Source: Tieghemiomyces parasiticus (Eukaryota; Kickxellomycota; Dimargaritomycetes; Dimargaritales; Dimargaritaceae). From it: a stretch of DNA of 64,000 bases. The stretch spans positions 1-64,000 of the forward strand of contig JANBPT010000156.1 in assembly GCA_027575765.1 (NCBI GenBank), written 5' to 3'. This document shows positions 33,085-63,751 of this stretch, piece after piece. Below the pieces are notes generated by a model. It did not search any database. It was not told the origin of the DNA and worked only from the letters and a program-made list of their open reading frames with translations. Within the stretch, counting starts at the first letter, position 1; the number at the start of each line of letters is the position of its first letter. The position numbers and the translations under genes were made by a program.

Positions 33085-36000
33085 ATGGAATCCCCCACAG
33101 CCACGTCGACTACTGACACTCCCGCCAAGTCGCGCTTCCTGCGCACCGCCGACGAACTCCAGGAGCTCTTTGACGGCAAGAACGTCGACCTTCTCATCGA
33201 GTACGGCGGCGTCACCGGTCTGGCCAAGGCCCTGGATACGAGTTTAGATTACGGTCTCATCGTCCAAGGCGACCAGCCTGAAACCTCACGGCGACATAGC
33301 CAGCGGCCCACCGGCTCCGATTCCGTCTCCTCCGCCCCGATCGCGGACATACTCCCGGCCGACGCCGCCCACTACCGCGGCGATGTGATCAATACCATCC
33401 GCGCTCAGTTTGCAGAGCGCATCGCCCAGTACGGCGCTAACGTTCTACCTGCGGTCAAGATCAAAAGCTTCTGGCGGCTGGCCTGGGAGGCCATGCAGGA
33501 GAAGATCATTATCGTGCTTGCTATTGCCGCCGTCGTGTCCTTAGGCCTGGGTATATACGAGGATGTGTCGTCCGATTCGGATGGCGAGGCCAAGGTCAAC
33601 TGGGTCGAAGGCTTCGCCATCATCGTTGCCATCCTGATTGTTATCCTAGCCGGCTCCGTTAACGACTACCAGAAGGAACGTCAGTTCCAGAAACTCAATG
33701 CCAAAAAGGACGATCGCCAAATCAAAGTGCTACGTAACGGCGGCCCCCAGTTCGTGTCAGTCTACGCCGTCCAGGTAGGCGATGTGCTGGAGATCGAGCC
33801 GGGAGATATCATGTGCGCCGACGCTGTCCTCATTCGCAACACCAACGGGATGCGGTGCGACGAGAGTTCTGTGACTGGCGAATCGGACCCCATCCGTAAG
33901 CACTCCCTGGCCCTGACCGTGGACCCCGCGACGGGTCAACCCCAGCTCCACGCCGTCGAGGGCACCGACCCGCTGCTCATCTCCGGTTCCAAAGTCCTGG
34001 AGGGCCTAGGCCGCTGCCTAGTCGTGGCCGTGGGTCCGCACAGTTTCTACGGCAAGACCTTAATGAGCCTGCGCACCGAGAACCAGGAAACCCCGCTGCA
34101 GGCCAAGCTGAACCGCCTGGCCGGCCACATTTCGAAACTGGGTCTGGCCGCGGCCGTCCTCATGTTGGTCGTCCTCCTCATCCGGTACTTTGTCCATTTC
34201 GGCCAGCATCCCGAGAGCCGCGGCGGAGCCACCACCATCGTGAGCGCCATCGTGCGCATCGTCATTACCACCGTGACCATCGTGGTGGTGGCAGTACCTG
34301 AGGGTCTGCCCCTGGCGGTCACCTTGGCCCTGGCCTACGCGACCACCCGCATGGTGCGCGACAACTGCCTGGTGCGCGTACTAGCCTCCTGTGAGACCAT
34401 GGGCAATGCCACCACAATCTGCTCTGACAAGACCGGAACCCTGACCCAGAACCACATGACCGTCGTCGCCGGCACTCTTGGTGACAATTACCGATTCGCC
34501 CGTGCTATGCCTCGGAGTGAATTGAGTCTGCCGGCGTCCAATCCTGCCGCCTCCATCCTGGGCAGCAGTGCTGGTGGGAGTGGATCTGCCACTCCCAGCC
34601 GGCGCCACCGCCGCCAGGCCAACCATGGCCGCGTACATCGCTGGGTTCGCGGCCACCACGGGCACGAGGCGACCAGCACCTCCGACCCCACCGACGGCCT
34701 TACCGTCCCGGACGTCAAAATTGTCATCACCGAGGTCGACCGCGCTTCCACCCTCCAGGCCACCGCCGACGGTGAGATCAGTCCCAGTCTGCATGACCAT
34801 CTTCTGGGCGATAGGTCCGAGGACGGCCGCCTCTCGTTCGTCTCGGATCGGTCAGCGGCTTCCGGCACCCATTCCACCATGAGCGGCCGGACTGACGGAA
34901 TCTTGGATTTGTCTCATCTCCCTCATAAGGTGCCCGGCCGCGTTCTAGCTCTGATCCACGAGGCCGTTGTACTCAACTCCACCGCTTTCGAACGAGACGT
35001 TAAGGATACTACCCCCGCTGACCTTGCTAAGCCCGAGACGGACGAGGGCGTGTCAAGTGCGGTGGCCGGGGCCCTGCCGACCTCGTCACGCTGGAACCGT
35101 CTGCGCCACCGCCTTGGTCGCCAGGCCGACGGGGCCGAGGCTGTGCCGCTCGGACCCATGCCGTCACGGCCCTCCACTGCCGGCAGTCATGTCGCCGACG
35201 TACCCGGGTTCGAAGGGTCTAAAACCGAAGTGGCCCTACTGGAGTGGGCGATGCGTACAGGCGCGCCCAGTGTGCCGTCCATTCGTTCCTCAGTCGAAAC
35301 TGTTCAGGTGTGGCCTTTCAGTAGTGCCACTAAGCGCATGACAACCATCGTCAAGTACGTGCGCAAGCCTGCCGGTGGCGGTCCCGCCGATATCTTTTGG
35401 CGGCTCTATGTCAAGGGCGCCCCCGAACTGCTCCTGCCCCACTGCATCTCCCAGCTTCACGCTCCCGCGAATTACCACCGAACGCTCGGTAGCGGCCAGC
35501 TAACGCCGACTACGTCACACTCTGACACGGGTTCCATCCCACCCTCTCCGACGGCATCATTCCCACACAGCCCCGGGCCTAGTTGGTCCCCACGCAGTGT
35601 CACCCCGCAGCCTACCGAGTTGGCCGACGAGGCAAGCATCCCATTCCTTACGGTCAGTCCGCCGGCCGAGGCTAGTAGCAGCGGCGACCAGAGTGATCAG
35701 CATCGTCCCTCCTCGGCGAACCCCTCCCTGCGAGATCTGACCGCCATTTCCCCTACCCTGACTTCCGGTTCGTCCCATCCGATTGCCGTCCCGGCCCTCC
35801 ACGTGCCCTCGTCATCTACTGAAGCACCCTTTGGCGCTAGTCCCCTGGCTCCAGGTTTCAATTTGGCTATCCCTACGCCCGGTAGCAACGGGGTCAGCCG
35901 CGCCGCCTCCGAGGAATACCTGAGCGTGGACAGCGCCCAGCGCAGCCTACATGCCCTCGCCCGTGGATCCCGCTCAGCCTCCCCGTCAGGCACCTCCGAC

Positions 36001-37788
36001 CGAAGCTTTGTGTTTCCGGCCGTCGGTTCCGGCGACATTCCCACCATCCCACTCGGTGCGCACGAGGCCCAGGCCATCGAAGCCGCTATCGCTGAGTACT
36101 CTAACCGCTCCCTACGTACCATTGGCCTGGCCTACCGCGAGTTCCCCACCTACGAGGAGGCCCTCTTCGAAGCCGATACGGACGAGGCCATTACCCAAGG
36201 CCTCACTTGGTTGGGCCTTTTCGGTATTGAGGATCCGCTGCGACCCGGTGTGGTGGAGAGCGTGGCGCTGTCCCGCCAGGCCGGGGTGATGGTGCGGATG
36301 GTTACGGGTGATAATATGCTTACGGCCAAGGCCATTGCCACCCAGTGCGGTATCTATGTGCCCAATTCCGGCGGCCTCATCATGGAAGGCCCCCAGTTCC
36401 GCAAGCTCAGTCCCCTGGAGATGGACCTGGTCGTACCACGCCTCCAGGTGCTGGCGCGCAGCAGTCCCGAGGACAAGAAAACCCTCGTCAACTGGCTGCA
36501 GCGAGCCAATGAGGTGGTGGCAGTGACGGGCGACGGGACCAACGACGGACCCGCCCTCAAGTCGGCCGATATCGGGTTCAGTATGGGGATTGCCGGTACC
36601 GAGGTGGCCAAGGAGGCCTCGTCCATCATCCTCATGGACGACAATTTCGCATCGATCGTAAAGGCCACCATGTGGGGTCGCTCCGTCAACGACGCGGTCA
36701 AGAAGTTCCTGCAGTTCCAGCTCACCGTCAACATCACTGCGGTCCTACTGGCCTTTATATCCGCCGTCTCCGACAGTAACCAGGCGTCGATCCTGACCGC
36801 CGTCCAGTTGCTGTGGGTCAACCTTATCATGGACACCTTGGCTGCTCTGGCTTTGGCCACCGATCCGCCTACCATCGCCCTGTTGCAACGCCCGCCGGAT
36901 AAGCGTCACGCAGCACTCATCAGCCTGCCGATGTGGAAGATGATTATCGGCCAGGCCATCTACCAGATCGCCGTGTGCCTGGTTTTGTACTATTGCCCTG
37001 GTATCTTTAACCTACACCCGTCACTCAACAAGACGGATGACGCAATGCACCGGGCCCTCGTGTTCAACGCCTTCGTTTTTATGCAACTTTTCAACGAGAT
37101 CAACGCGCGGGTTCTGGACGACCAACTCAACGTGTTTCACCGGATCCACAAGAACTACTACTTTGGGGTCATTTTTCTACTGACCTTGGTCCTGCAGGTT
37201 ATCATCGTGGAGTTTGGCGGCGTCGCGTTCAAGACCCACCACCAGCCATGGTACCTGTGGCTGACGGCCGTCATAATCGGCGCCCTGGCCCTCCCGCTCG
37301 CTGTCGTCATCAAGGCCGTCCCAGACCGCTGGTTCGGCTGGTTGCCGGCCAGTATCACCGATATCTACCATCATCCGCAGGATCTTTCCTGGCAAAACCC
37401 CGCTCTCGCCGTGCACAACCATATCTCCGGCCACCCTCTGTCCAAGTCCCGTAATCACATCTCGTTGGACATGCACAGCCCGCTAACCCCTGGCAGCACT
37501 CCGACCGACGAAAAAGTGGCTCCCTTGCCCTCCCCCTCGGCCTCCCCGCTACACCGCCCCGTGTCACCCGCAAACGGTGGTGGTGGTGGGTTTGGGTTCC
37601 GGCGTAAACCTACAGCAACTGGTCTCACTTCCGCCGCCGTCATGATTCCTACCCTCACTCTTACCTCGGTGGCCGTTAGCAACGAGCTCGCCCGCGGACA
37701 GCCCACGCCCTTCAAGGATGATGTCTACGTGCCCGTACCGCTGAGCGAGAAGTCTCGGGCTTCGTCCGAGGCAGACCGTAAGGACTGA
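33085..37788 (+). CDS. PMC1: PMC1-type P-type Ca2+-ATPase
   Basis: Predicted 1567-aa protein, ATG at 33085 (an in-frame TAG lies 24 bases upstream), one exon. It is a type IIB calcium pump, expected in the vacuolar or plasma membrane, exporting Ca2+ from the cytosol with ATP. Ten hydrophobic segments are visible: two before the actuator domain with TGES (264), M3 and M4 with VAVPEGLPL, and six after the P domain. CSDKTGTLTQ carries the phosphorylated Asp at residue 448. KGAPELLL lies near 777 and TGDGTNDGPALK at 1148; M6 has LLWVNLIMDTLAALALATDPPT. The protein is a few hundred residues longer than yeast Pmc1. Most of the excess is two Ser/Pro/His-rich stretches in the nucleotide-binding domain (about residues 475-615 and 790-985) and a Pro/Ser-rich C-terminal tail. 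No clear calmodulin-binding helix was found. Confidence 0.95.
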   Translation: MESPTATSTTDTPAKSRFLRTADELQELFDGKNVDLLIEYGGVTGLAKALDTSLDYGLIVQGDQPETSRRHSQRPTGSDSVSSAPIADILPADAAHYRGDVINTIRAQFAERIAQYGANVLPAVKIKSFWRLAWEAMQEKIIIVLAIAAVVSLGLGIYEDVSSDSDGEAKVNWVEGFAIIVAILIVILAGSVNDYQKERQFQKLNAKKDDRQIKVLRNGGPQFVSVYAVQVGDVLEIEPGDIMCADAVLIRNTNGMRCDESSVTGESDPIRKHSLALTVDPATGQPQLHAVEGTDPLLISGSKVLEGLGRCLVVAVGPHSFYGKTLMSLRTENQETPLQAKLNRLAGHISKLGLAAAVLMLVVLLIRYFVHFGQHPESRGGATTIVSAIVRIVITTVTIVVVAVPEGLPLAVTLALAYATTRMVRDNCLVRVLASCETMGNATTICSDKTGTLTQNHMTVVAGTLGDNYRFARAMPRSELSLPASNPAASILGSSAGGSGSATPSRRHRRQANHGRVHRWVRGHHGHEATSTSDPTDGLTVPDVKIVITEVDRASTLQATADGEISPSLHDHLLGDRSEDGRLSFVSDRSAASGTHSTMSGRTDGILDLSHLPHKVPGRVLALIHEAVVLNSTAFERDVKDTTPADLAKPETDEGVSSAVAGALPTSSRWNRLRHRLGRQADGAEAVPLGPMPSRPSTAGSHVADVPGFEGSKTEVALLEWAMRTGAPSVPSIRSSVETVQVWPFSSATKRMTTIVKYVRKPAGGGPADIFWRLYVKGAPELLLPHCISQLHAPANYHRTLGSGQLTPTTSHSDTGSIPPSPTASFPHSPGPSWSPRSVTPQPTELADEASIPFLTVSPPAEASSSGDQSDQHRPSSANPSLRDLTAISPTLTSGSSHPIAVPALHVPSSSTEAPFGASPLAPGFNLAIPTPGSNGVSRAASEEYLSVDSAQRSLHALARGSRSASPSGTSDRSFVFPAVGSGDIPTIPLGAHEAQAIEAAIAEYSNRSLRTIGLAYREFPTYEEALFEADTDEAITQGLTWLGLFGIEDPLRPGVVESVALSRQAGVMVRMVTGDNMLTAKAIATQCGIYVPNSGGLIMEGPQFRKLSPLEMDLVVPRLQVLARSSPEDKKTLVNWLQRANEVVAVTGDGTNDGPALKSADIGFSMGIAGTEVAKEASSIILMDDNFASIVKATMWGRSVNDAVKKFLQFQLTVNITAVLLAFISAVSDSNQASILTAVQLLWVNLIMDTLAALALATDPPTIALLQRPPDKRHAALISLPMWKMIIGQAIYQIAVCLVLYYCPGIFNLHPSLNKTDDAMHRALVFNAFVFMQLFNEINARVLDDQLNVFHRIHKNYYFGVIFLLTLVLQVIIVEFGGVAFKTHHQPWYLWLTAVIIGALALPLAVVIKAVPDRWFGWLPASITDIYHHPQDLSWQNPALAVHNHISGHPLSKSRNHISLDMHSPLTPGSTPTDEKVAPLPSPSASPLHRPVSPANGGGGGFGFRRKPTATGLTSAAVMIPTLTLTSVAVSNELARGQPTPFKDDVYVPVPLSEKSRASSEADRKD

Positions 37789-41380: not shown

Positions 41381-44300
41381 ATGTTGACTACTCACGACCC
41401 TCATCGTCCCTCTCCTGCTAATAATGGAGCCAGCCCGCCCCCGACCACCGTCGTTCCTCTGACCAAGTCCACATGCCCCGAACCGGGATACGACCAAGTC
41501 TCGGCAGGGACACCTCTGCAAACCGACTTCGATACCGCCACGCTATGTCAGGTGGCCTGGGGTATCCTCCTGACCCGCTACACCAGATCGGAAGTGGTTG
41601 TTTACGGCCACGCCCAAGGTTCAGGTCCATCCTTTGACCCCAAAGTTACGACCAAGAACCTCGCCGTGCGTACTTTACGTCTCGACCCCAACACCAAACT
41701 CGCTTCGGTCTTTGGAACCTCCGTTTCTACCCCTGACCACCCTTTGCGTCACCATGAATGGTCCCTGCCGGCCGACTTTAAAGGCCAGCTCGCTAGTGTC
41801 ATGGTTACGTACACCCTCCCCTTGGCCACCCAGTCCTTGGTGGATAGTTCATCGGCGCTCGACCTCAACCTCCAATCCAGCGGGGACCTCAAGGAAGACG
41901 CCCTCAATACTTTGGCAGAAATGACCCAAGCCACCATTGTCGTCTCCTGTCAGGTGGTCGCAGGCATCCTTGTGGCCCGCTTAGCCTTTGCCCGCACGCA
42001 GGTGGCTAAGGTGGCAGTAGAAGAGCTTGGAGAGCAATTCTGTACAGTGGCTCGTTCCTTGGTTGAAGCAGGAAGAATTCCCGATATGGCGACCACTTTA
42101 ACCATCGCCGATGTGGCCTGGGTAGATGGCATCGAGCGCAAGCGCCTCCTGCAGTTCGCCGGCACCATCAGTCACCCTGACGCAGCCAATACCCCGGTCC
42201 ACCTCCTAGTCGGTGAATGGGCGAGCAGGACTCCCGACGGTATCGCTCTGGACCACGAGGGCCGCACCGTCACCTACGCCGAGTTTGACCGGATGACCTC
42301 AGCCCTGGCCCAGATGCTAGCCCGCGACCATGGCGCCCAGCCCGAGGTCCGTATCGCCCTCCTCCTGCCCAAGTCCATCGAGTTTGTTATAGCCCTGTTC
42401 GCTGTACTCAAGTCTGGCGCCGCCTACGTGCCCATTGACCCGGAGTACCCCGAAGAGCGTATCCGCTACATCATCCAAGATAGCGCGGCTACGCTAATCC
42501 TGACTACTTCTACAACCCAGGCTCTTCTAGGGGACTTCACGTGTCCCACGCTGCAAGTCGACGACCAGACTCAATCTATTGCAGCCACGAATGGGGCCGG
42601 TGCACCGTCTGTTGCCCATCGCCCACAGTCCACTGACTTGGCCTACATTGTGTACACCTCGGGTACCACAGGGCAACCCAAGGGTGTTATGGTCGAGCAC
42701 GGCAATCTGGCTAATTTTGCTACCGATCTGACCTATGCAGACGACTATGGACCTGGCAAGCGTGACCTACTAGTCCTCTCACTGGGCTTCGACGGTATCC
42801 TATGGAGTCTCCTCAGGACTCTTTGCCAAGGTGGGGCAGTGGTCATTCCCGGTGCCGACTTACTGGCTGACCTTCAGAGTGTGCACTCGGCTATCGTCAC
42901 GCCGTCGTTTGCCACCCGCTTGAACCCTGGTCAGTATCCGCAGCTAGCGTTTCTGGTCTTGGCCGGTGAGCACGTCACTGCTGACCTCCATGCCAAATGG
43001 CGTGGCCACTGCAAGTTGGTCAACGTCTACGGTCCCACCGAAACTACGGTGACGTCCAATACCCTAGTTCTCGCTGCTCCTAACTACATCTCGGTCGGTC
43101 CGCCCAGTGCTAACTACTTATGCTACATTGTGGACGACAGCATGCGGTTAGTGCCCGTGGGTGCCCCGGGCCAGCTTCTGATCGGTGGTTTGAGCGTTGC
43201 CCGTGGTTACTGCAACCTGTCGGACCTCACCGCCCAGAAGTTCATTGCTAATCCGTTCGGTCCCGGTCGCGTGTATTTGACGGGTGACCGAGCCCGTTGG
43301 CTGTCCAATGGCCACGTCGACCTGCTGGGTCGCATGGACCACCAGATCAAACTCCGGGGCTTCCGTATCGAACTCGAGGAGGTCGAGGCTGCCGCCACCA
43401 GCTTTCCCGCCGTTCAGCTCGCCGTGGCTTCAGTTCAAAGTAACTGTCTGGCCCTGTTTGTGGAACCCCAGTCGGTGGACACCGTGGCCTTGCTTGACCA
43501 CCTCCGCAGCCGTTTGGCCAGGTTTATGGTACCCGATCAAGTCATCCCGGTGGCCCGCCTCTCGCTGACCGCTAACGGTAAGGTCGACCGCAAGGCCTTA
43601 CCGACCGCTACTGAGTCCCTCCCGGAGATCGTCCCCGCTCAATCCCAAAGCCTCACTGACTTGGAACTGCGCCTGCGTGAGGCCTGGGCCCAGATCCTGC
43701 AGCTCCCTGGTGACCATATTAGGGCAACTGACGACTTCTTTCGTATCGGTGGCGACTCCATCTCGGCTATCCTGCTCGTATCAAAATGCCGGCAGCTCGG
43801 GTATAAGGCCACTGTGCCACTCATCTACGAATGCCGCCAGCTCCGCGCCTTGGCTGCCCGACTGACCCCGCTGGCCACGGCGGCCTCCGAGGAAAATCAG
43901 CACCAGGTCCAGGGCTGTGCCGACCTGACCCCGATTCAGCGCTGGTTCTATGGTCTGCCGTTCCGCAACCCCCACCACTTCAACCAGTCCTTCACCCTGC
44001 GTGTGGATCAGTCGGTTACCCTCGGGCAGATTGGCCGCGCTCTTGTCCACCTGGCAAACCACCATGATATCCTACGTGCTCGGTTCCATCTAAACGACGA
44101 AGGTGCTTGGAGGCAGTACATTCCAACTACCGAGGCCATCCCCGGCAATATCCCTGTGACCGAGGCCACTGTAAACGAGGTGGATTATGCCGACTTCATT
44201 TTGAAGGTCCAGTCTAGCCTGCACCTCACGAACGGCCCTGTCATGGCAGCCTGCCTGATCCACACTGGCGCAGAGTCCGAGCCAGCCCGTCTGTTCTTGA

Positions 44301-47300
44301 CCATCCACCACGCCCTGGTTGACCTGGTCTCCTGGCGCGTCCTGATCGAGGACCTGCAGACCCTGCTCACCGGGGGTCAGCTGCCGCCCAAGACCCTGTC
44401 CTTCCAGACCTGGTGCAGCCAGTTGGATGACTACGCCCGGACCCTCACTGCCGATGCCTGGCCCGTGCAGAGCATGACGGTGGATAACCGCCAACTCCTG
44501 CCTCCCCCAGAGGTCCTTGACCCAGTGCCCACCGCGGCCCGCCTGTCCATATCCCACGAATTCGACCAGGAGTTCACCACCCGGCTCCTGCTGCAGTTGG
44601 CGCCACAATGGCGTGTCACCCCGCGCGACTTGCTCCTGGCCACCTTTGCCCGGGCCTACTGCCAGGCGTTGGGTACCACCCAGGTCTCCTTTGTCATGGA
44701 GGGCCACGGCCGGGAGCCCTGGTCGGACGCCATGGATGTGAGTCGCACCGTAGGCTGGTTCACCGCCCTGTACCCCTTGGTCCTGGACGTACCCCTGGGC
44801 AGCTCGGTCCTGGCCACTCTGCATCACACCAAGGAGGCGATGCAGCAGATCCCCGTGCGTGGTTTCCCCTACAGCCTACTCCGCCACATGCCGGGGGTGG
44901 ACCCAGCTGAGCGTGCCAAGCTCCTGGCCAAAACCCCCGAGCACTTCGACGTCCAATTCAACTACTTCGGTCGGTTCGGCAATGCGGGCGCAGGTGGCGC
45001 AGACAGTGGTGCGGTTAGTATCGAGTGGGATGACCGCTTCGGCCTGCACGACTTTGCCCCCGACGAACACGTCATCTTCGACATCAACCCCATGCCCCTC
45101 GTCAACCAGGACCGGCTGCGCCTGGTCATGGAGTACAATCCGCGGGTGTATGGGACCCAATGGGCTGAGCAACTGATCAACCTGTGGCGTCAAGACCTCG
45201 AGCACCTGGCTGCCACCCCAACGGCTTCCGTCCAGCCGCTTCTCACTCGATTCGATGCGCCGCTACTCCAGCCCACCGCCCAGGAATTCGACACCCTTCT
45301 GGCCGACCTGGAGGAACGCGGCATGGCTGCTTCCGACGTAGCGGATATCCTTCCCTGTACCCCCATGCAAGGCGGTCTGCTCGTTGCTACGCTGCAAGAT
45401 CCATCGGCCTACTTGGTCCAGGCCGCCATTTCCCTGTCTGGCGAAGTAGTCCTCAGCCGGATCCAGCAAGCTTGGGTAAACTTAACACAGCGCCACAGCG
45501 TCCTACGCACCGTCTTCATTCCGACCGTCGCACCGCGTGGCAACGGACTTGCCCAGGTCGTTCTACACCGCGCACCGCTGGCCTGGAGTCTAGCCGAGGC
45601 ACCCCTGCCTTCTCTGACCGACTTTTTCAACGAGAACCGTGCCCTGGGCTTCGACATGACCAGGCCCATGGCCCGGGTTGATGTGTTTCCTAGCAAGCTT
45701 TCCAATGAATACCTGCTGGTCCTGGCCATCCACCACGCCCTGGTCGACGGCTGGTCGATCCCGCTGCTGCTGCGTGACCTGGGCCAGCTGTACGCCTCTC
45801 CGGACATGCCAGGCCAACTGGCCTCACCTTCATTTAGCACTGTGGTCGAACAGGTGGCCAACCAGGACCAAGACGAGGCGCGTGCGTTCTGGGCTGAGTA
45901 TTTGCGCGGTGTTCAGCCCACGCCAGCACCCATGCTTAGTACGGAGCTCATGGGTGAACATGGCTTTGCCGAGTACCACTGTACCCTCAACGTCGATAAG
46001 TCACACTTACACAACGCCGCCCAGCAATTCGGCGTGACCCTCTCGACCCTCCTCAAGGCCGCCTACGCCCTCGTCTTGGCCCAGTACCTGAACCGGGACA
46101 ACCTCGTCATTGGCTTTGTGGTGTCAGGTCGTAACCTGGACGTGGCGGATATTGACACCGTCGTCGGTCCCTGCCTCAACACCGTCCCGTTGCGGTTCCG
46201 CCTGACGGACCAACCCGTCGGCCAATGGCTCCAGCAGCTCCAGGCCGACGCTACCGAGATGATCCCCTTCGAGCACACCAGCCTTGCCAAGGTCAAGGCC
46301 TGGTGCAGTCCAATCATGGCCTCCCCTCTATTTCATGTGCTCGGTGGCTTCGAGAACTTCCCCCAGGGTTCACACCAGGCCGGGGACATTCACGTAGAAC
46401 TGGTACGGGTGCACGAGTTTACCGAGTACCCGCTCACCCTTGATTTCGTCGATGGGCCGCATGCCGTCGGCGTCAAGTGCTTCTACGGGCGCATGTTTTG
46501 CAGTGAGGCCAGCATTATTCAACTGGTACAGCAGGTCAGCTCCGTGCTAGCCAAGCTCACGAGAGCGACTGCGGATACCACGGTCACCCAGGTTTCCCAT
46601 TCGCTTCCTAATCCGACCCAGAGCTGTCCAGGGCGACTGATTACGGCGGACGGAGTCCAGCTGCCTCTCGCTGTCCTAGACCACTACCTGGCCAAACAAG
46701 GACTGCCCGCGCCCTATTCCGTCAGCATCCACGGCGGTCGCATCGTAACTCGTGTCTCAGCACCCGAGACTGCGCGTGAGTCATTCCGACCTCTACTGGC
46801 CGGTGTGAACCTCCCTGCCGACCTTGTGCCTGCCGCTTTTATCTCGCTTGAGGCTTACCCGCACTTGTCCGGTGCCAGTGAGGGTTCCGTTGCTCGGCTA
46901 GGTGAGGCATACCTCAGTGTGTCGGACACCGAGAACCAGGGGTCGTCCTTAGACACAGTGGGTAGGTGGCTCGCCGTGACCTGTACCGACCTGCTCCTGG
47001 GCACCGGAGATGGGATGCCTGATGGTGAAAGTATCTGGGTGTCTTTACTGGCTAGACCCGTTCTGTTCCTCCAGCTGGAGCACCGCATCAGCCAACGTTT
47101 CGGGGTCACTCTTGACACGCGGAACGTCCTGGCCTGCGATGATTTGGCTTCCTTGACACTGGTGATCCAACGTTCCAGCCCTTCACTATCGCCTATTCGT
47201 ACGCCAGAAGTCCCATCGAACGAGCCCAAGTCTGAGTTGATCCGCCCGATGAAGGCGACACCTTACCAGGCCCAGGTGTGGCTCGCCTGTCAACTCTCGC

Positions 47301-50300
47301 AGGACCCTGGTCAGTTCTACCACCAAGCCAAGCTTAGCATTCCCCGCCAGCTCACCCATTCGGACGTCCAGTGGGTCCTCAACCGGTTCCTAAGCCAAGT
47401 TGACTGGCTGCGCACCGTGGTCCGTAAGGAGGAAGGCCAGCTCGTAGCCTGTCTACTCTCTCCGAAGCGACTGTCGTCAGCTACCCAGGCCACCGTCGGT
47501 TCCCAGTCCCTGCGTAGGGATGGCCTCGAAGCAGCTGGTAAAGTCCTGGTCAGCATGGATATGTTGGCCGTTCTCTACCATCCGGAATCACCCAGTCTTG
47601 TGGTCCGTATGCACCAGATCTTGGCACCTGAAATGTTATTCCATCTGCTTACCGAGGAGCTGCAACTGGCCTTCAGAGCGAAACATGACTGCAAGGTGTT
47701 CAACGTTAGCCCCTCGCTCGCCATGGGACACACAACTACCGTCGGCCGACTTCCATCGGATAGGTCGATCCGTGCTTACTGGACGGAAACAATGGCCGAA
47801 GCCTCTGCGGATCTGAAACTACTGATCGACCGTCCTCGCGCCCGCGTGCCCACGTTTAACTCAGCCTGCCTTCGGTTAGGCCTGGACCAGGGAGTCATCA
47901 GCGGATTTTCTTGCCTCACTGACGTTAACCCTGTCGCACCGCTTAGGCATTGGACGGCCATGGTGGGGTCCTATCTTGGAAGGATCTGTGGTACTGACAA
48001 CGTCCTGGTCGATGTGCTACTAAACCACGGCGTATGTCGTAGAGAAACTTATACTGTTTCCCTAGGTCACCTGGCTTGTCCGGTGCGAGTCCCAGGTGCG
48101 GCAAGTGCGTCCAGTCTAGATGACCTTAGCGCTGCCCTTTCGCAACAGCTGCAGCGCTCCGTGGACCACTTGACCCCAGACTACGACCCGTACGCTGGTC
48201 TTCCCCGCCCGCCGGCCCACCCGCTCTGGCATCCAGTCCGTGTGGGTATCGCAGTCGACCTTGTTGAATGGGATGCTGAGGCCCAGTCCTACCCTGCCCT
48301 CTGGCATGACATCATCTTCCGAATCAGTCTTTCCGGTCCCAGCCCCGGCATGACCCTCCAGTACAACCCGGACCTTTTCGATTCGGCCACCGTCGAACGC
48401 CTGGGGGCCAACCTGCTCTACTATTGTCAGGTCGCTGTCACCAGCTCCCTGCCTCTGACCGCAGTCCCTTTAGTATGTCCGGCGGAGGAGCACCTTCTAC
48501 TAGAAAAGTTTGGCCGGAGTCCCAGCGAGTACGACCCTTCTGATTTCAGCACTAGTGTCATCACCATAATCCGCGACAGCGTCCAGCGCAGCCCTCACAC
48601 GGTGGCCCTCGAGTCCCAGTTGGAGACTGTGAACTACACTGAAATGGACGCCCGAGTCAACAGTTTGGCGTGGGCCCTTCAGCACCACGGAATCCGAGTG
48701 CAGGACCGGGTGGCAGTAATGGTAGAGAGCCGTTCAGCCACCGTCATGGCCATGCTGGCCCTCTGGCTACTCCGGGCCGTCTACGTCTCTGTCGACCGTT
48801 CCCTACCCGAAGAGCGGCAGCGCTACATGGTTGAGACTGCCCAGTGTACCCACGTCCTGAACCTAACCGACGCCGACGTGAGCTGGACGGAGGCCCTACC
48901 CGGGCTGACCCTTCTATGGTCCAATGTTAATTCCAACCCGGAACCTTTCCCCCACGATCTCCAGCCCGAAGACCTGGCCTATATTATCTTTACTTCGGGG
49001 ACAACTGGGCAACCCAAGGGCGTAATGGTCCAGCACGCCAGTCTGACCAACCTCCTACTGGCACCTGCGGCGGTTGTCAGCCCCGCATCCGGGTCACGCT
49101 TCCTTCAAGCGATGGCGGTGGGCTTTGATGGGTTTATCCTGACGGCATTGTCCCCATTATCCAACTCGTCTACGGTGGTCTTCAGCGACGGTGACATTCC
49201 GACTGCTTTGGCAACGGTTGAGACGGCCTTGCTGACGCCCACCGTGTTGGGAGCACTCAACCCCCACCGCTATCCCAATCTCACCCGGATCAGCTGTGCT
49301 GGCGAAGCGCTGCCCGCCGAAGTGGCCACGATATGGGGATCGCAATGCGAAGTGTGGAATATGTACGGTCCTGCTGAAGTAACTGTGTGCAGCCACAGCG
49401 GGCTTGTTCAGCCAAGTGGACCCCTCACCATTGGGCGGCCCATCGCTGGTAGCGAATGCTACATTGTAGACGGGTACGACCAGCTCGTGCCTATAGGCAT
49501 GGTCGGCGAGATCTGTGTCGGTGGTCTGGGGGTCAGCACCGGCTACGTTAACCGCCCTGACCTCAACACGATCAAGTTTGTCAGCCTGCCTTACTCCGCA
49601 GGCCCCATCTACCGCACTGGTGACCTTGGTCGCTGGCTGCCTAACGGTGAAGTGGAGTGTCTGGGTCGCCGTGACGACCAGGTCAAGCTGCGCGGATTCC
49701 GTATCGAACTGGCCGAGGTGCGAGGAGCCCTCCTCAGCCTGGATGGGGTAGCGGAAGCGTATGTCCTCGTCAATGAGCGTAGCCTGGTTGCTTTTGTGTG
49801 CCCGAGCAGGTTGGACGAGACGTCGGTATTAGCGTCACTCCGTGAGGCTTTGCCAACCTATATGGTACCCAGTCACGTTCTTGGCCTCGACCACATCCCA
49901 GTAACTGTCAACGGCAAGGTCGATCAACGGGCCCTGATATCGCTGTTTTCCGAACACGCACGGACGTCCCTGTCGACAGGAGGTCACGAACCAGGCGCGC
50001 TGGCCCAATCCGATGAGGCGCAGGTTTTATGGGCCGCGGTGGCCGATACGTTAGGTTTGGCCCACATCCCGGTGGCCAACCACCTTCCGTTCTTGAAGCT
50101 TGGGGGTGATTCAATCTCAGCCATCCAGGTCTCAGCGCGGTGCCGACAGTTAGGCTACCGGCTCCCCGTTCCCATACTGCTTAAGAGCCAGCCTCTTTCC
50201 ACTGCGGCAGCCGCAATGGAACGCCTTGTCCGGTCCACGACTTCTGAGTTGGTACCTATTCCTTACGGAGTTTCGTTCCCTTTGACCCCGATCCAGCACT

Positions 50301-62300: not shown

Positions 62301-63751
62301 TCCAGGTGGTGGCCCAATGTCAGCGTAACGGTCTTCATTTTGCCATCGCTGACCTCAACCGCAACAATACCCTACGCCAGGTGGCTAGGCTTTGCGCAGC
62401 AGTCGACGAGACTTCCACCGTCAGCACCAAACCGGACCAGGAGGTTATCGGCTGCCCTCGTTTGACTCCCGCCCAGATGGCGTTCTTTTTTATGCCGTTC
62501 ACCAACCCTAACCAGGTCGCCTTGCCTGTATTATTCCAATCTGGCCGGACCTTTCCCGAGGCGCAGTGGCGAACGGCGGTCAGGCGCATGGTTGAGCTTC
62601 ACCCCATGCTCCGTAGTCTCTTCCGCCTAGACAACCAAACGAGAACTATGACCTATGACGTTGGCGAGCATCCACTACTCGATCACTACCGGTTTGAACT
62701 ACACCACGTCAAAGATTTCGCCACTGTTATGAGCACGCTACCTTCGTTACTCCTGGAATTGGATATCGAAAAGGGTCCACTCAGCACGTTCCACGTGTTT
62801 GACCTGGGTCACGAACAGTACTTTTTCCACTGCGTCCACCACCTGGCCTCGGACTACCTCTCGTACAAGGTCTTCGCCGAGGACCTGACCCGCCTGCTAA
62901 TGGACCAGCAGGTCGAACCGCCCACCGTCTCCTGCCAAGCGTGGGCCAAGTATCTGCATCAGACAGCACAGGACCTCGACCTCGACGACCTCACTGTACC
63001 ACCACCGCTCCCTGACCTCGCGGTGAGTCTGCGAGGCGAAGTGACCAAGCCTGAAAGCACTCCTGGTGGCCGGAATCCCGAATGCCTTGCCTGTCTGGAC
63101 GTATCCGCGTCGACCCTGGCCTCGGCTGCCAACCGCTTAGGCGCCACTCCCATTGAGCTGTTGGTCACGGCCCTACATATGGCCTACCAAGAGGTGTTCC
63201 ACTTCAACGTCATGGGTCTGGCCTTCATGACCCACGGCCGCCAGCCCGTTGGCGGCACCGCCTTCGACCTCTCCCGCACCATGGGCTTCTTTGCACACTA
63301 CGTTCCCGTCGTTCTTGATGCGCCACGCGCAGCCGGCTTTAGAGCCACCCTTCGCCATACGCAGGAGACGCTCGGGACAGGCATCGACGATGGAGTGAAG
63401 CTGACTCTGGTACGATACCTGCGTGACTTTACAGACCCCGCTCAACGCAGACCCTACGAAATTGACCCGTTGTTCGGGTTCAGCTACCTGGCCCCCACGG
63501 AAGCCTCAGTGCCATCTGGCGGCAACCAGCCCCTATTACGGGAGCTGACCGACGTAATGACTGAGCTGCGGGCCCACCGTGCCGATACTTCCCCTCACCC
63601 ATTTGAAGTGGCTGTTACCCATGAAGGGGACCGGCTGAATATGCTGGTCATTGGGCAGAGGGATCAGGGCATTCCCCCTATGATGCAACGCCTACTCAGT
63701 GTCTGGTCAGAAACTGTACGTCAAATGGTAGGAACTTTTGAGCCGATGTAA
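41381..63751 (+). CDS. Five-module non-ribosomal peptide synthetase
   Basis: Predicted 7456-aa protein in one exon, ATG at 41381; the frame is open upstream only to a TTG at 41366. It activates amino acids as adenylates, loads them on phosphopantetheine arms, epimerises and joins them. Order by motif: C-terminal half of a C domain; A1 (YTSGTTGQPKG at 425), T1 (Ser 793), E1 (HHALVD at 976); C1 (HHALVDG at 1451), a vestigial A/T remnant, dead C2 (HQILAPE at 2078), A2, T2 (Ser 2911), E2 (3099); C3 (3569), A3, T3 (Ser 4418); C4 (4630), A4, T4 (Ser 5466), E4 (5651); C5 (6132), A5, T5 (Ser 6970), terminal E-like domain (7153). No thioesterase, reductase or methyltransferase is present. The product is likely a pentapeptide with D residues at 1, 2 and 4. 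No tailoring or transporter gene of an obvious cluster lies within the window. No frameshift or stop interrupts it. Confidence 0.97.
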   Translation: MLTTHDPHRPSPANNGASPPPTTVVPLTKSTCPEPGYDQVSAGTPLQTDFDTATLCQVAWGILLTRYTRSEVVVYGHAQGSGPSFDPKVTTKNLAVRTLRLDPNTKLASVFGTSVSTPDHPLRHHEWSLPADFKGQLASVMVTYTLPLATQSLVDSSSALDLNLQSSGDLKEDALNTLAEMTQATIVVSCQVVAGILVARLAFARTQVAKVAVEELGEQFCTVARSLVEAGRIPDMATTLTIADVAWVDGIERKRLLQFAGTISHPDAANTPVHLLVGEWASRTPDGIALDHEGRTVTYAEFDRMTSALAQMLARDHGAQPEVRIALLLPKSIEFVIALFAVLKSGAAYVPIDPEYPEERIRYIIQDSAATLILTTSTTQALLGDFTCPTLQVDDQTQSIAATNGAGAPSVAHRPQSTDLAYIVYTSGTTGQPKGVMVEHGNLANFATDLTYADDYGPGKRDLLVLSLGFDGILWSLLRTLCQGGAVVIPGADLLADLQSVHSAIVTPSFATRLNPGQYPQLAFLVLAGEHVTADLHAKWRGHCKLVNVYGPTETTVTSNTLVLAAPNYISVGPPSANYLCYIVDDSMRLVPVGAPGQLLIGGLSVARGYCNLSDLTAQKFIANPFGPGRVYLTGDRARWLSNGHVDLLGRMDHQIKLRGFRIELEEVEAAATSFPAVQLAVASVQSNCLALFVEPQSVDTVALLDHLRSRLARFMVPDQVIPVARLSLTANGKVDRKALPTATESLPEIVPAQSQSLTDLELRLREAWAQILQLPGDHIRATDDFFRIGGDSISAILLVSKCRQLGYKATVPLIYECRQLRALAARLTPLATAASEENQHQVQGCADLTPIQRWFYGLPFRNPHHFNQSFTLRVDQSVTLGQIGRALVHLANHHDILRARFHLNDEGAWRQYIPTTEAIPGNIPVTEATVNEVDYADFILKVQSSLHLTNGPVMAACLIHTGAESEPARLFLTIHHALVDLVSWRVLIEDLQTLLTGGQLPPKTLSFQTWCSQLDDYARTLTADAWPVQSMTVDNRQLLPPPEVLDPVPTAARLSISHEFDQEFTTRLLLQLAPQWRVTPRDLLLATFARAYCQALGTTQVSFVMEGHGREPWSDAMDVSRTVGWFTALYPLVLDVPLGSSVLATLHHTKEAMQQIPVRGFPYSLLRHMPGVDPAERAKLLAKTPEHFDVQFNYFGRFGNAGAGGADSGAVSIEWDDRFGLHDFAPDEHVIFDINPMPLVNQDRLRLVMEYNPRVYGTQWAEQLINLWRQDLEHLAATPTASVQPLLTRFDAPLLQPTAQEFDTLLADLEERGMAASDVADILPCTPMQGGLLVATLQDPSAYLVQAAISLSGEVVLSRIQQAWVNLTQRHSVLRTVFIPTVAPRGNGLAQVVLHRAPLAWSLAEAPLPSLTDFFNENRALGFDMTRPMARVDVFPSKLSNEYLLVLAIHHALVDGWSIPLLLRDLGQLYASPDMPGQLASPSFSTVVEQVANQDQDEARAFWAEYLRGVQPTPAPMLSTELMGEHGFAEYHCTLNVDKSHLHNAAQQFGVTLSTLLKAAYALVLAQYLNRDNLVIGFVVSGRNLDVADIDTVVGPCLNTVPLRFRLTDQPVGQWLQQLQADATEMIPFEHTSLAKVKAWCSPIMASPLFHVLGGFENFPQGSHQAGDIHVELVRVHEFTEYPLTLDFVDGPHAVGVKCFYGRMFCSEASIIQLVQQVSSVLAKLTRATADTTVTQVSHSLPNPTQSCPGRLITADGVQLPLAVLDHYLAKQGLPAPYSVSIHGGRIVTRVSAPETARESFRPLLAGVNLPADLVPAAFISLEAYPHLSGASEGSVARLGEAYLSVSDTENQGSSLDTVGRWLAVTCTDLLLGTGDGMPDGESIWVSLLARPVLFLQLEHRISQRFGVTLDTRNVLACDDLASLTLVIQRSSPSLSPIRTPEVPSNEPKSELIRPMKATPYQAQVWLACQLSQDPGQFYHQAKLSIPRQLTHSDVQWVLNRFLSQVDWLRTVVRKEEGQLVACLLSPKRLSSATQATVGSQSLRRDGLEAAGKVLVSMDMLAVLYHPESPSLVVRMHQILAPEMLFHLLTEELQLAFRAKHDCKVFNVSPSLAMGHTTTVGRLPSDRSIRAYWTETMAEASADLKLLIDRPRARVPTFNSACLRLGLDQGVISGFSCLTDVNPVAPLRHWTAMVGSYLGRICGTDNVLVDVLLNHGVCRRETYTVSLGHLACPVRVPGAASASSLDDLSAALSQQLQRSVDHLTPDYDPYAGLPRPPAHPLWHPVRVGIAVDLVEWDAEAQSYPALWHDIIFRISLSGPSPGMTLQYNPDLFDSATVERLGANLLYYCQVAVTSSLPLTAVPLVCPAEEHLLLEKFGRSPSEYDPSDFSTSVITIIRDSVQRSPHTVALESQLETVNYTEMDARVNSLAWALQHHGIRVQDRVAVMVESRSATVMAMLALWLLRAVYVSVDRSLPEERQRYMVETAQCTHVLNLTDADVSWTEALPGLTLLWSNVNSNPEPFPHDLQPEDLAYIIFTSGTTGQPKGVMVQHASLTNLLLAPAAVVSPASGSRFLQAMAVGFDGFILTALSPLSNSSTVVFSDGDIPTALATVETALLTPTVLGALNPHRYPNLTRISCAGEALPAEVATIWGSQCEVWNMYGPAEVTVCSHSGLVQPSGPLTIGRPIAGSECYIVDGYDQLVPIGMVGEICVGGLGVSTGYVNRPDLNTIKFVSLPYSAGPIYRTGDLGRWLPNGEVECLGRRDDQVKLRGFRIELAEVRGALLSLDGVAEAYVLVNERSLVAFVCPSRLDETSVLASLREALPTYMVPSHVLGLDHIPVTVNGKVDQRALISLFSEHARTSLSTGGHEPGALAQSDEAQVLWAAVADTLGLAHIPVANHLPFLKLGGDSISAIQVSARCRQLGYRLPVPILLKSQPLSTAAAAMERLVRSTTSELVPIPYGVSFPLTPIQHWFFAQEFRNLSHFNQSFLLELSRPVSRDTLGRALLRVVNHHAVLRSQFRRDPTGKWSQTIPYPFTTLSSQVHEVTCVESELSQCCYRVQQSIDIHQGHNVAAALVHLAAPEDGRRSSSTLLFLTIHHLVVDLVSWSILLEDLTLLLDGLTPLPPSLPFANWASELDRWRRERSVAHLVPEPVLVCPSPLSLCALTELPANTAGNEVTHTVQIPTDVAEALIQVAGNSFRLDELLLAALCGALAVVTHSPTTTVHTESHGRHPWHEGMDLSRTVGWFTTILPVTVTNASSASLSDHLRQIKHTRRSLRYHGLETDWPKAPLDPSSQTTAAYNPMEVVFNFLGRTTDDRALTCHGKAPWIVRHDLLPLIPIGGDEELRPQVLEVLGRQTSTGLELTVNYCPQVVPTAAVAALGDEVRKYLAKIATLNLAGLWVPSDFPLLEASQGDMAKIVADLPTLGFTVAEVENLYPMTPMQQGLWTATAKDPTEYLLQFAMTIDGVSDSDVLLHALEAVVARHAILRTVFLTSFSNARSNGIQVVTRRPRFGWRAIGCWSEAGVQDEEDYLCSDKALGFTLDQPLLRCCVAPATQASTRLIMTIHHALIDGWSFGIFTQELRHFLSPGPSASLSPAVEFSAYVEHIGNLDDTEARTVWEDYLRGIEQPTTLLLPKAPTPSSMKTEYHIVIYNDAAHLQTLVQDCGLTVYTLLKAAWAYLLHRYTGLSDIVFGNTVSGRALDLLGVDGVVGCLINTVPCRVSIGTDMKLKDFLQGINAQSQRLVAVEHCHLADLNRWVAGDLRVTDMFNTMLVYENYPNTGIDSDDQAVTFSDLKAVESTEYALTGMAQIEHGQLTAVLNWSTSDFAQPYIEALGRHLRSTLRQMADILQQNSGSSTLADLNLPSPADLQDLTIDMARPTKPIDFHICVPALFTKQAERTPDHPAVEYDDPASGTISWTYRELLEKSRIIARHLLAQEVQREDPVGLLIDRLPSTAAAMLGVHLAGATFVPLDANLPLDRLQFITRDCGIQRILYNIGDVEKVVAIRHGTGVATDFIDTLLINDSSKSTDLGLPIVQPTDLSHILYTSGTTGQPKGVQLEHRVMANFVQQSPEVIAIRSGMRVMQNMALTFDCCLVEILATVCIGSTVVLRNDLLDTLPKVDVLMATPSVLATLDPTKYPNLRHVITAGEALPRPLAERWSSHCSVTNMYGPTECFVCHAVQFSPGGPVTIGRPLPNTECYILDHKLRSVPVGVPGEIFVGGICVTRGYVNRPDLNSKALLPNPYSGRGYLYRTGDVGRWLLDGTVEYFARSDDQVKVRGHRVEPQEIEAVLGQYLEVSSVAVVIASGKLYAFVCPDTISLSSLRAHAVAHLPPYMVPSAFFPLTELPRNTNGKTDKRQLLSLLPSMVSHTSGRLVTAPENEVQLLIVDTMAQVLNMSASQIDIHDSFFQLGGDSISAIRLSSLCRDHGIHVSIAQIFQYGTPAALAGIIDYDSSPSTTMAYRPFDLVAYSRVVMEELTAEVATSLRVETEAVEDILPVSSLQQGFLVSTLKDPSAYMVQMTYDLTGPLDEAKLHQSWSQVVRSYQILRTKFLVPADQSQHAFLQVVLRDTDFEWTYHGQPLASLDQAEHHHLATDRARGFTLTGPLLRFAIYRGPANSHLFCTTFHHALLDAWSESTIIAESLEYYHGVKTQPRPQYHEFIRHLTHIDQEGMAAFWRDNLDGVKLHPTIQFPRESNASPTEHGEIRHSVSISLLATKQFCRGMGLTVNSLLRAVWALTLARYLGENEEVTLGVLVSGRNVPVPGIEGMVGMCINSLPLRVRVDRNHTITDFLRQVNADSGALTAYEQCSLVDIKRWAKLDADSDLFNSLLVYDNYETTTSACTDQINYIPRSGQNFTEYAYSANFYDQDNTLMLNLSYQTRYCNPSYAYYLVHFIDHCLAAIVSDHTEQLGNILTLPAAEQALIRQWSDGITIDFPQKDWLAHQFFTQHLATRADAIALESATDRFTYTEVYHRACAIAAVLHSQGARCGDRVALLFTRCPEFIFSYLAVLLLGGVCVPIDASNAPDRLAYMIDILSNPWVVTNSTASVRAVELGVADGRIVYADLVAETSIPGQSPRLPFEHVPNSLAYIVFTSGTTGRPKGVQVTHRSLGNFILAACERFQLPSNCRFLQTLNIAFDSLALEVFCTFHTGGTLVLQDGELLEDLRRVNCCAMVPSLLAAIDPASYSNLQHIIMGGESLAPTLAHKWSCTARIHNSYGPTEVTVMCHSHLAASGSTITVGNTLANVQCHILDDQLRPVPVGITGEIYIAGAGVSKGYWKQPELTEKVFLDNPFGAGQLYRTGDLGCWLTNGEVQVQGRKDFQVKLRGFRIELGEIESTCQAFPGVANAVALVKDKCLVVYISPTDVQVEALKEHITAKLPHYMVPEVVVSMEALPLTSIGKVDRRALQALHLPQGPDLDGSNDLPVSKTFVTLRHALSETLNVDPARVVPSASFLRLGGDSISAIQFSSRCKKYGLKLTVADILKHPMLTRLEQCAEPILDTSEPKPQMETSGPISPTAIMRQVIHRMCNVNHFNQSFLLSCRSPPTLATFKEAIRALVVHHDILRLRLIIVDGKSSMEVLPLPEDTSTDAFLARFASVTEESLLLDDYDDWVLRTQQSINVEHGPVLACSLLTVDAQAYVYLTVHHLCIDFVSWRIMLEDLEILLQGQMLQPKTLSFREWAMLVNDYAPTLADDLWPDHGPVSSLPIDILPAPAAPVTYRSVQSVGRNLGLELSQILYEQAAPRVDASPQEFMVASLVMALATTFQLDSLEVQMEGHGRQPWRSDLDVSRTLGWFTAIYPVAFHTGQSEHYASLPQVLRPLAHVKQRLHSIPDSGFPYGLLKYLKGRNPPQRASDKPLAQPTGVVFNYAGRFNQLENSDAFWSPAVLSNGWSHALSLDEVVQHALTASCDYDGKHGLTLILDYSTMMYHEGTANTITNLWLDNLQQLIQAALASPLPCRTASDYGLARLSEPAFGQVVHEMLPNLDLSLADVDDLYPCLPIQEGLLLATLNDPAAYMVLLIYEIQGPLDIVRLQEAWATTSQQHAIFRTQFLLGLPDTPSANLQLVRKHADARWLVADWSDLDPDLAQAEYLWLEREQGFDLKQIPIRFGLFHLAPDHHRLIVSVHHAILDGWSGSLLINTLLLNYAGQVAPPAGQVKDLVSHVQACNAAEAERFWAAQLDGVESPSLLVDPYCVPDLTVKPSDAAYYGSLARTLELGEKIVDFSQSYGITVSTFFRAAVALVLHRHTGSEHPVFGTVVSGRNVAVAQVESTIGPCISTIPCRARIGRALTVGDLLQTLHQDGTAAYDFEHCRLTDIHRWSGMSPEQPLFNVLLVYQNYPEVQSDMDLPIRLSLLDSHDPTDVPLTLVAAHQGTQLHIKAGFQTRVFSTDYVERFVDHLETTIRSLVTTSPSDLVASLSMLAESEHELLASDWARNPIKLPTNSYAHEGFLSCVHSGPSRVAIRDGEQEYTYSQLHLMATHLAHRLHQTGKGGPDQVVGILAGNSVELIVGQLAVWMTGSAFVVIAPDYPVERQQFILADAACVAVVGPPALLATFKADTPTPQLAIDLSSLQSDHAVGRMSQAEIDGGSLAYVIYTSGTTGTPKGVMHEHGAAANHLQGFIRTTGMTADVVTPTLLTPTFDVSLSEIWTTLSVGGCLLITQGDQRRALQQATRAACTPSLASLFEPSDFPGLHSLVLTGEPSSQALVDKWSTSLRLFNWYGPTEVANGSHCAELKPSATVTIGRPFPNAAGLILDEHLRPSPVGIIGQLYLGGKGLARGYLNRPELTAEKFITWPLTGERLYQSGDLARWLPDGQIECLGRIDHQVKVRGFRVELGEVEAVLESHPTVTQACVLVQDTHLVGYVCPALSGDSEAVLNWLRNCLPHYMVPSALVGLAELPRTPVGKVDRKALPPFHFNRSPTDTDLSALSPVESQLLQTVADCLRLDVSIIRLDSTFYQIGGNSLSAIQVVAQCQRNGLHFAIADLNRNNTLRQVARLCAAVDETSTVSTKPDQEVIGCPRLTPAQMAFFFMPFTNPNQVALPVLFQSGRTFPEAQWRTAVRRMVELHPMLRSLFRLDNQTRTMTYDVGEHPLLDHYRFELHHVKDFATVMSTLPSLLLELDIEKGPLSTFHVFDLGHEQYFFHCVHHLASDYLSYKVFAEDLTRLLMDQQVEPPTVSCQAWAKYLHQTAQDLDLDDLTVPPPLPDLAVSLRGEVTKPESTPGGRNPECLACLDVSASTLASAANRLGATPIELLVTALHMAYQEVFHFNVMGLAFMTHGRQPVGGTAFDLSRTMGFFAHYVPVVLDAPRAAGFRATLRHTQETLGTGIDDGVKLTLVRYLRDFTDPAQRRPYEIDPLFGFSYLAPTEASVPSGGNQPLLRELTDVMTELRAHRADTSPHPFEVAVTHEGDRLNMLVIGQRDQGIPPMMQRLLSVWSETVRQMVGTFEPM
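41440..42170 (+). other. NRPS N-terminal half condensation domain
   Basis: Residues about 20-265. The segment with LCQVAWGILLTRYTRSEVVV resembles the C-terminal lobe of a C domain, where a helix precedes the VvfG strand. The N-terminal lobe and the HHxxxDG motif are absent, so it cannot condense. Truncated C domains are common at the start of fungal NRPSs. Confidence 0.6.
42190..45210 (+). other. NRPS module 1: A1-T1-E1 (loading, D-residue)
   Basis: A1 has all core motifs, including NVYGPTETT and GKVDRKAL. By alignment to the gramicidin synthetase Phe domain its ten-residue pocket code reads DGWVVAVVTK; I make no confident substrate call. T1 carries GGDSISA with the Ppant serine at 43757. 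The E domain has HHALVDLVSW, EGHGREPW (Glu at residue 1107), DVSRTVGWFT and FNYFGR, so epimerisation should be active. Confidence 0.88.
45290..46560 (+). other. NRPS C1 condensation domain (accepts a D-donor)
   Basis: It follows an E domain, has DILPCTPMQGGLL and an intact HHALVDGW at 45731, and is of normal length. It should accept the D-aminoacyl donor of module 1. Its own A partner is missing directly downstream; see the vestigial segment. Confidence 0.85.
46600..47190 (+). pseudogene. Vestigial A-T segment inside the NRPS
   Basis: Residues about 1740-1937. No adenylation core (no SGTTG, no GPTE, no TGD) is present. ADLVPAAFISLEAYPHLSG resembles the A-domain tail that normally reads YMVPsaFv.Ld.lP.t.nGKVDR, with the GKVD lysine gone. 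A T-like fold follows (a D-rich loop, then LEHRISQRFGVTLDTRNVLA), but where GGDS belongs the sequence reads LARP, so there is no serine for the phosphopantetheine arm. The reading frame is intact, so this is decay by domain loss and substitution, not by stops. Confidence 0.75.
47250..48470 (+). pseudogene. NRPS C2, inactive condensation domain
   Basis: Its fold length and TPYQAQVWLACQLS opening fit a C domain, but the catalytic HHxxxDG reads HQILAPE at 47612: the second His, the Asp and the Gly are all replaced. It should not catalyse bond formation. It sits directly before A2, where an active C would normally be. Confidence 0.8.
48530..51570 (+). other. NRPS module 2: A2-T2-E2 (D-residue)
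   Basis: A2 is complete (FTSGTTGQPKG, NMYGPAEVT, YRTGDLGRW, NGKVDQRAL); pocket code by alignment DGLLSAMVCK. T2 has LGGDSISA (Ser at 50111). E2 has HHLVVDLVSW, ESHGRHPW, DLSRTVGWFT and FNFLGR, so it retains the Glu and Arg of the E motif. Confidence 0.88.
51630..54750 (+). other. NRPS module 3: C3-A3-T3 (no E domain)
   Basis: C3 has NLYPMTPMQQGL and HHALIDGW at 52085. A3 has YTSGTTGQPKG, NMYGPTECF, YRTGDVGRW and NGKTDKRQL; pocket code by alignment DCVAIAMVCK. T3 has LGGDSISA (Ser at 54632) and is followed directly by C4, so the residue should stay L. Confidence 0.9.
54800..59260 (+). other. NRPS module 4: C4-A4-T4-E4 (D-residue)
   Basis: C4 follows a module without E and has HHALLDAW at 55268, with Ala in place of the last Gly of HHxxxDG; the His pair and Asp are kept. 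A4 has FTSGTTGRPKG, NSYGPTEVT, YRTGDLGCW and IGKVDRRAL; pocket code by alignment DSLMIGSVMK. T4 has LGGDSISA (Ser at 57776). E4 has HHLCIDFVSW, EGHGRQPW, DVSRTLGWFT and FNYAGRF. Confidence 0.88.
59290..63748 (+). other. NRPS module 5: C5-A5-T5 plus terminal E-like domain
   Basis: C5 has HHAILDGW at 59774. A5 has YTSGTTGTPKG, NWYGPTEVA, YQSGDLARW (Ser where other A domains have Thr in TGD) and VGKVDRKAL; pocket code by alignment DVSCVTWNGK. T5 reads IGGNSLSA rather than GGDSI (Ser at 62288). The last domain has HHLASDYLSY at 62837, MTHGRQPVGG in place of EGHGR, FDLSRTMGFF, and FGFSYLAP in place of FNYxGR. The protein ends there. Confidence 0.85.

Follow-up and report, generated by a model that had tools for sequence, protein, structure and literature searches.

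What is a module without a single catalytic motif doing in the middle of a peptide synthetase whose other modules look alive? The question is raised by a nonribosomal peptide synthetase (NRPS) gene of Tieghemiomyces parasiticus, a mycoparasite of the Dimargaritales, found in the stretch of 64,000 nucleotides analyzed here (contig JANBPT010000156.1, positions 1 to 64,000; hereafter the window). Arranged by motif, its live adenylation (A), carrier (T), epimerization (E), and condensation (C) domains read A1-T1-E1-C1-pseudo-module-A2-T2-E2-C2-A3-T3-C3-A4-T4-E4-C4-A5-T5-terminal E-like domain, where the pseudo-module consists of the three remnants A_C*, T*, and C*. The same dead station recurs in dozens of sister genes as well as in related fungi, a hint that its shape and not its chemistry is what has been retained. 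The explanation that we favor, with a probability of about 0.58, is a catalytically dead A-T-C module that is skipped by the chemistry and kept as a structural C* partner of A2. The parts of the gene involved are the following.

41381 to 63751, plus strand: NRPS gene, 7456 codons counted from the first ATG
45344 to 46573, plus strand: C1, live, with HHALVDG, residues 1346-1755
46583 to 48475, plus strand: pseudo-module A_C*-T*-C*, 631 residues (1759-2389), frame open
46631 to 46888, plus strand: A_C*, the C-terminal subdomain of an A domain whose core is gone, residues 1775-1860
46940 to 47188, plus strand: T*, a carrier-domain remnant, residues 1878-1960
47057 to 47059, plus strand: codon at the carrier Ser position, now Pro1917
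47240 to 48475, plus strand: C*, a dead C domain, residues 1978-2389
47612 to 47632, plus strand: HQILAPE where HHxxxDG belongs
47777 to 48475, plus strand: C-lobe of C*, from the YW motif through the end, the sole part left in the most reduced forms (loci C459 and C1, protein P0118)
48443 to 48562, plus strand: end of C* plus the C*-A2 linker, which can be aligned with live C-A junctions
48524 to 50008, plus strand: A2, live, with SGTTGQPKG
50102 to 50113, plus strand: GGDS of T2, the first live carrier behind C1

None of the signatures of a working module, that is, an A core with SGTTG and the A10 Lys, a phosphopantetheine Ser, and HHxxxDG, is present in the pseudo-module. The first-pass annotation of the window had described about 630 residues between C1 and A2 with the order of an A tail, T, and C, in a fully open frame and devoid of A core, carrier Ser, and HHxxxDG (HQILAPE instead), and all of this is borne out by motif and alignment. 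The A_C, PCP, and C folds were also obtained in that order by structure prediction and hidden Markov model (HMM) checks, with A_C* weak when taken alone (42.1) and with a list of PDB structure matches that spans residues 215-631 of the segment and barely covers A_C* and T*. With T* unable to hold a residue and C* unable to link one, the chain must pass from T1 through C1 to T2, and the skipping of the pseudo-module follows from the anatomy.

A search of the T. parasiticus genome (1363 contigs) with the segment, in which 39 candidates were scored, located at least 36 places, 26 of them near full length, three partial, six comprising the C-terminal half of C* alone and one short and weak. Identity among the 26 near-full-length places falls at 83–100% for 14, 46–51% for five and 29–41% for seven, and no stop was found in any of the 36. 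Two proteins from contigs of 6404 and 8712 bases (P0019 and P0020), lengths that match none of the contigs seen for these places, may be further copies. From the 29 near-full-length or partial places, 25 near-full rows and one partial row were aligned. The second His of HHxxxDG is gone in all 25 C* rows (HQ in 20, HP in three, LQ in two), the first His is retained in 23, and the Asp position holds Pro in 23, Asp in one and Thr in one. At the Ser position of T* there is Pro in 25 of 26 rows and Ser in the remaining one; this last site (L026, C1330) reads VLAKSTLL, with the Ser present and GG absent, and its near relatives C627 and C489 have Pro. We also surveyed the domains of 16 T. parasiticus proteins: 15 that had been retrieved because they carry the segment, plus the one encoded in the window. 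C1 is present in 14, always with HHxxxDG, and in all 15 proteins that reach A2 the next domain is an A with a live motif. The segment was matched in one piece in 14 of the 16 and in two pieces in P0010 and P0017, while P0020 ends inside it. A separate Condensation search of the genome, in which 77 of 283 candidates were scored and all exceeded the cut-off, points to a very large NRPS family with at least 77 such matches.

Outside this species, two homolog searches with the segment itself returned only T. parasiticus (nine strong proteins) and weak bacterial matches. With the C1 of a sister gene as the query, 983 proteins were retrieved, and 12 from Dimargaris were among the best 120 of them; a T. 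parasiticus profile matches the segment in nine of these 12, which place it between C1 and A2 whenever they have both. The segment had been called a fossil, and as the private relic of one enzyme this is ruled out by the at least 26 near-full-length genome copies and the Dimargaris carriers, as well as being at odds with the purifying selection described below. Eight Dimargaris rows could be aligned, two of them (P0044 and P0104) 99% identical. The second His is absent in all eight (E, D, or P) and the first kept in all eight, the Asp position is still D in five, and the Ser position of T* is Leu throughout, preceded even now by FW.LGG in P0034 and P0133 (D. xerosporica).

The C* domains of both genera form one clade with support of 100/100 (14 C* rows from four species in a tree of 41 C domains). 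This clade adjoins 19 live bacterial C domains and is separate from eight live DCL-like ones, six of them from the same fungi. For the T. parasiticus C*, the same picture emerged from an earlier tree of 68 domains. A single origin of all C* is thus well supported but open to long-branch error, as dead sequences may attract one another in trees and long end branches were flagged for C47 and P0133. HMM scores were rejected as sufficient proof for D. verticillata and D. xerosporica, as their C* scores of 69, 89, and 98 bits overlap those of live bacterial C domains (best 88) and the A_C*-T* of P0034 scores 19 bits, under the live ones (best 30); the claim for these two species is hence carried by position, by the dead A domain and by the tree. 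In D. cristalligena, for which 21 NRPS are reported as predicted (PMC7466969), the protein pairs P0035/P0036 and P0104/P0044, each from two sources and 99–100% identical, differ only by excised pieces, several of them in the dead A and C*; P0035 and P0036 diverge exactly at the missing C* parts. Gene callers probably splice the dead parts out of these models. In P0032 of D. xerosporica, a stretch of about 437 residues (1500-1937) that separates a live T from a live C was unmatched by any domain profile tried and is perhaps another decayed domain.

How the module came to its present state can be read from the forms that retain more or less of it. A dead A domain, with the live motif absent in the alignment, precedes the segment in seven Dimargaris rows and in three from T. 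parasiticus (C485, C604, and P0019); the ten match live A domains with a probability of 98.0 over 306 columns, those of P0044 and P0133 having lost some of the front end. Such domains are known from three Dimargaris species and the T. parasiticus genome. Of the former six-module enzyme once proposed, the part that stands is that the ancestor had one more complete module, since full-length dead A versions exist in both genera. Live relatives of the module, which had been suggested as possible survivors in related fungi, were not seen among the 16 T. parasiticus and 12 Dimargaris proteins (best 120 of 983, not a full survey), which suggests that the loss of one product residue is an old event. 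The dead A is found in every Dimargaris row with a reliable model and absent in most T. parasiticus copies, which lack about 370–390 residues of A core between C1 and A2 and keep the remainder; the A core was hence lost later, within Tieghemiomyces, the whole module having apparently died before the two genera split and been kept since. Three trees require two losses of the A core (support of the deciding branches 89/93, 94/93, and 99/82) and a single loss is not rejected (p-value of the approximately unbiased test, p-AU, 0.078); an apparent third loss, in P0104, probably comes from the gene model. C753 and C675 lack A1-T1-E1-C1, and their pseudo-module comes after the N-terminal region; in C459 and locus C1 (two of the six C-lobe loci, both fetched) and in P0118 only the C-lobe of C* is left near the protein start, directly before an A. 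Overall, a reduction series runs from a dead A-T-C through A_C*-T*-C* to the C-lobe of C* alone.

The segment is under purifying selection and less constrained than the live domains. Among 14 close copies its ratio of nonsynonymous to synonymous divergence (dN/dS) is 0.413 (bootstrap 0.358–0.485), compared with 0.266 for C1, 0.277 for E1 and 0.259–0.280 for A2, and it is 0.33 against three more distant genes. Within the segment the values are 0.235 for A_C*, 0.529 for T*, 0.302 for the N-lobe of C* and 0.481 for its C-lobe. The same 14 copies, compared by synonymous divergence (dS) over window positions 42629-50008 and the sister genes L013-L030, reveal a mosaic family: A1 reaches 0.45–0.76 and A2 0.34–0.76, whereas E1, C1, and the pseudo-module stay at 0.08–0.29, and for E1 the figure is 0.19 between the close group and the three distant genes versus 0.17 inside the group. 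It looks as if either A domains had been swapped or the E1-C1 block had been homogenized, chimeric assembly being also possible.

Under the reading that we favor, a complete internal A-T-C module has lost all three catalytic functions, and the live C1 would join the residue on T1 to that on T2 across it, so that the window's enzyme would run on five live A-T pairs instead of six. C* would be the structural half of a C-A platform required by A2, A_C* and T* would form a folded bridge tying C1 to C*, and the A core, being dispensable, would have been deleted in most Tieghemiomyces copies. We infer this structural role of C* for A2 from several observations that fit a C-A platform, namely the C-lobe that even the most reduced forms hold on to and the conserved junction with A2, where residues 601-660 have a majority-residue share of 0.69–0.71 over eight clade representatives, among the highest values (windows 21-40, 81-100, and 221-240 likewise reach 0.68–0.72). 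From outside these fungi, SidC A2T2 is described as highly unstable when deprived of its C domain (PMC10192304), which supports such a platform. The idea of a spacer, advanced in the first-pass annotation, survives as part of this explanation, but the reduction series favors contact between C* and A2 over mere length. More tentatively, the pseudo-module might be an architectural unit of its own, inherited since before the two genera split, which lets C1 work with a carrier that belongs to the module after next; the reduction series would then display which module parts are needed apart from chemistry.

Several observations weigh against a structural partner of A2. The C-lobe of C*, the very part it would need, has a higher dN/dS than the N-lobe or A_C*, the last being strongly constrained, and the segment as a whole is less constrained than C1. 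The ratio of T* is about 1 in two smaller groups (two of three pairs and the single pair usable, respectively), and with 0.529 among the close copies T* could be close to drifting. The deletion of the A core proves only that the remainder was kept, not why. Three of the 12 listed Dimargaris proteins, all from D. xerosporica, showed no such element in the profile search, and the D. cristalligena models P0035, P0036, and P0037 are missing parts of C*, the C-lobe included. Finally, the predicted model of the pseudo-module with A2 was poor (mean predicted local distance difference test, pLDDT, 62.2; predicted template modeling score, pTM, 0.53) and was not used.

One alternative is that the dead module was recruited as a protein-binding platform, in the manner of the X domain that binds P450s or the dead C1 of VibF in its dimer. 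We regard this as unlikely, given that the most reduced forms retain the C-lobe alone, beside an A, and that none of the annotated neighbors within the window looks like a partner gene. Less probable still is a drifting remnant with no job, whose frame stays open only since any stop would be fatal to the enzyme and whose copies are kept alike by gene conversion. The dN/dS above that of the live neighbors, the near-neutral T* of the small groups and the low dS of the E1-C1-segment block relative to A1 and A2, which fits recent homogenization or shuffling, would all be expected of it; however, an upper bound of 0.485 is far below 1, A_C* is as low as 0.235, the deeper comparison gives 0.33, and the segment has been kept in two genera.

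A new catalytic or binding activity of the segment itself appears very improbable. The first His, kept in 23 of 25 T. parasiticus and all eight Dimargaris rows, and residues such as W457, R467, and P500, invariant with others over 25 rows, would speak for one, but the second His position is Q, P, E, or D depending on the clade, any of P, D, T, S, and N occurs at the Asp position, and no new shared catalytic set is apparent. We give hardly any credence to an artefact of gene models or assembly, in which the segment would be an intron or a product of short-read chimeras between near-identical NRPS genes. NCBI and JGI models do excise pieces in some genes (P0010 and P0017 are split; P0035 differs from P0036, and P0104 from P0044) and the assembly comprises 1363 contigs, but the frame is open in all 36 places with a dN/dS below 1, copies on different contigs differ by up to 70% in sequence, and the element also exists in another genus. 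For the window's own gene, an intron appears to be ruled out by the open frame, the dN/dS, and the one-piece matches in 14 of 16 proteins.

The annotated neighbors referred to above are all housekeeping-like.

2017 to 7977, minus strand: glycosyltransferase 41 with TPR repeats
10892 to 13048, minus strand: RRM/MLLE protein
27730 to 28929, minus strand: semialdehyde dehydrogenase
33085 to 37788, plus strand: P-type cation ATPase

At the two ends of the synthetase there are two further regions of note. A C-like N-terminal region precedes A1 (41381-42208, residues 25-300), and it has a weak match to the C-terminal half of C domains (2.8 bits; BLAST E 0.003). The C-terminal E-like domain (62450-63736, residues 7048-7476) has HHLASDYLSY and a long branch in the 68-domain tree, and for the protein's second half Pfam lists no thioesterase.

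Dead A, T, or C domains are known singly; here all three occur in one module, in two genera and about thirty paralogues, under purifying selection. The pseudo-module amounts to a natural deletion experiment on the non-catalytic tasks of an NRPS module, and it raises the questions of whether an A domain needs an adjoining C fold and whether the carrier that a C domain serves can lie outside the next module, both relevant to the frequent failure of engineered module deletions. For these fungi, products have to be predicted from the number of live modules and not from that of module borders.

Judged by titles and abstract starts, the literature searched reports neither such a module in Dimargaritales nor one that is dead in its A, T, and C domains alike and has been conserved in two genera. 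The skipped module of the myxochromide S synthetase is reportedly present in the enzyme while the chain passes from the previous to the following module, and its T domain is said to be mutated. The carrier of the pseudo-module would be just as unloadable, as far as sequence can tell; the difference is that the pseudo-module has three dead domains and occurs in two genera. The C1 of VibF resembles C* in being an inactive C domain with a structural effect, as it dimerizes VibF, but the dimer is described as not necessary for function there (PMC8795117), and here T* and A_C* accompany the dead C. The X domain of glycopeptide synthetases is likewise described as an inactive C fold with a changed HHxxxDG, closest to the LCL type (PMC8949500, PMC11546977), and C* too is nearest to bacterial LCL-like C domains in our tree. 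The X-domain signature HRxxxDD (HRxxxDG in a legend of the same paper) is not found in C*, which has HQ...PE in the window and HQ, HP, or LQ over the 25 rows, and the X domain sits in a terminal module, whereas C* is internal and precedes a live A. Ferrichrome synthetases have A domains deprived of several core motifs in a working enzyme (A2 of sib1 in S. pombe, A3 of fso1 in O. olearius; PMC2644324), comparable to the dead A of C485, C604, and Dimargaris, but in the account given there the A alone is degenerate and not the adjoining T and C. Another parallel is module 2 of the fungal siderophore synthetases SidD/Nps6, an internal module of a working NRPS whose inactive, truncated A domain (dA) is described as having lost about 290 N-terminal residues (PMC10192304), much as here the A core is absent and A_C* kept. 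The T2 of that module is, according to the same source, still loaded by A1, whereas the pseudo-module lacks both the Ser in T* and the HHxxxDG in C* and is dead as a whole.

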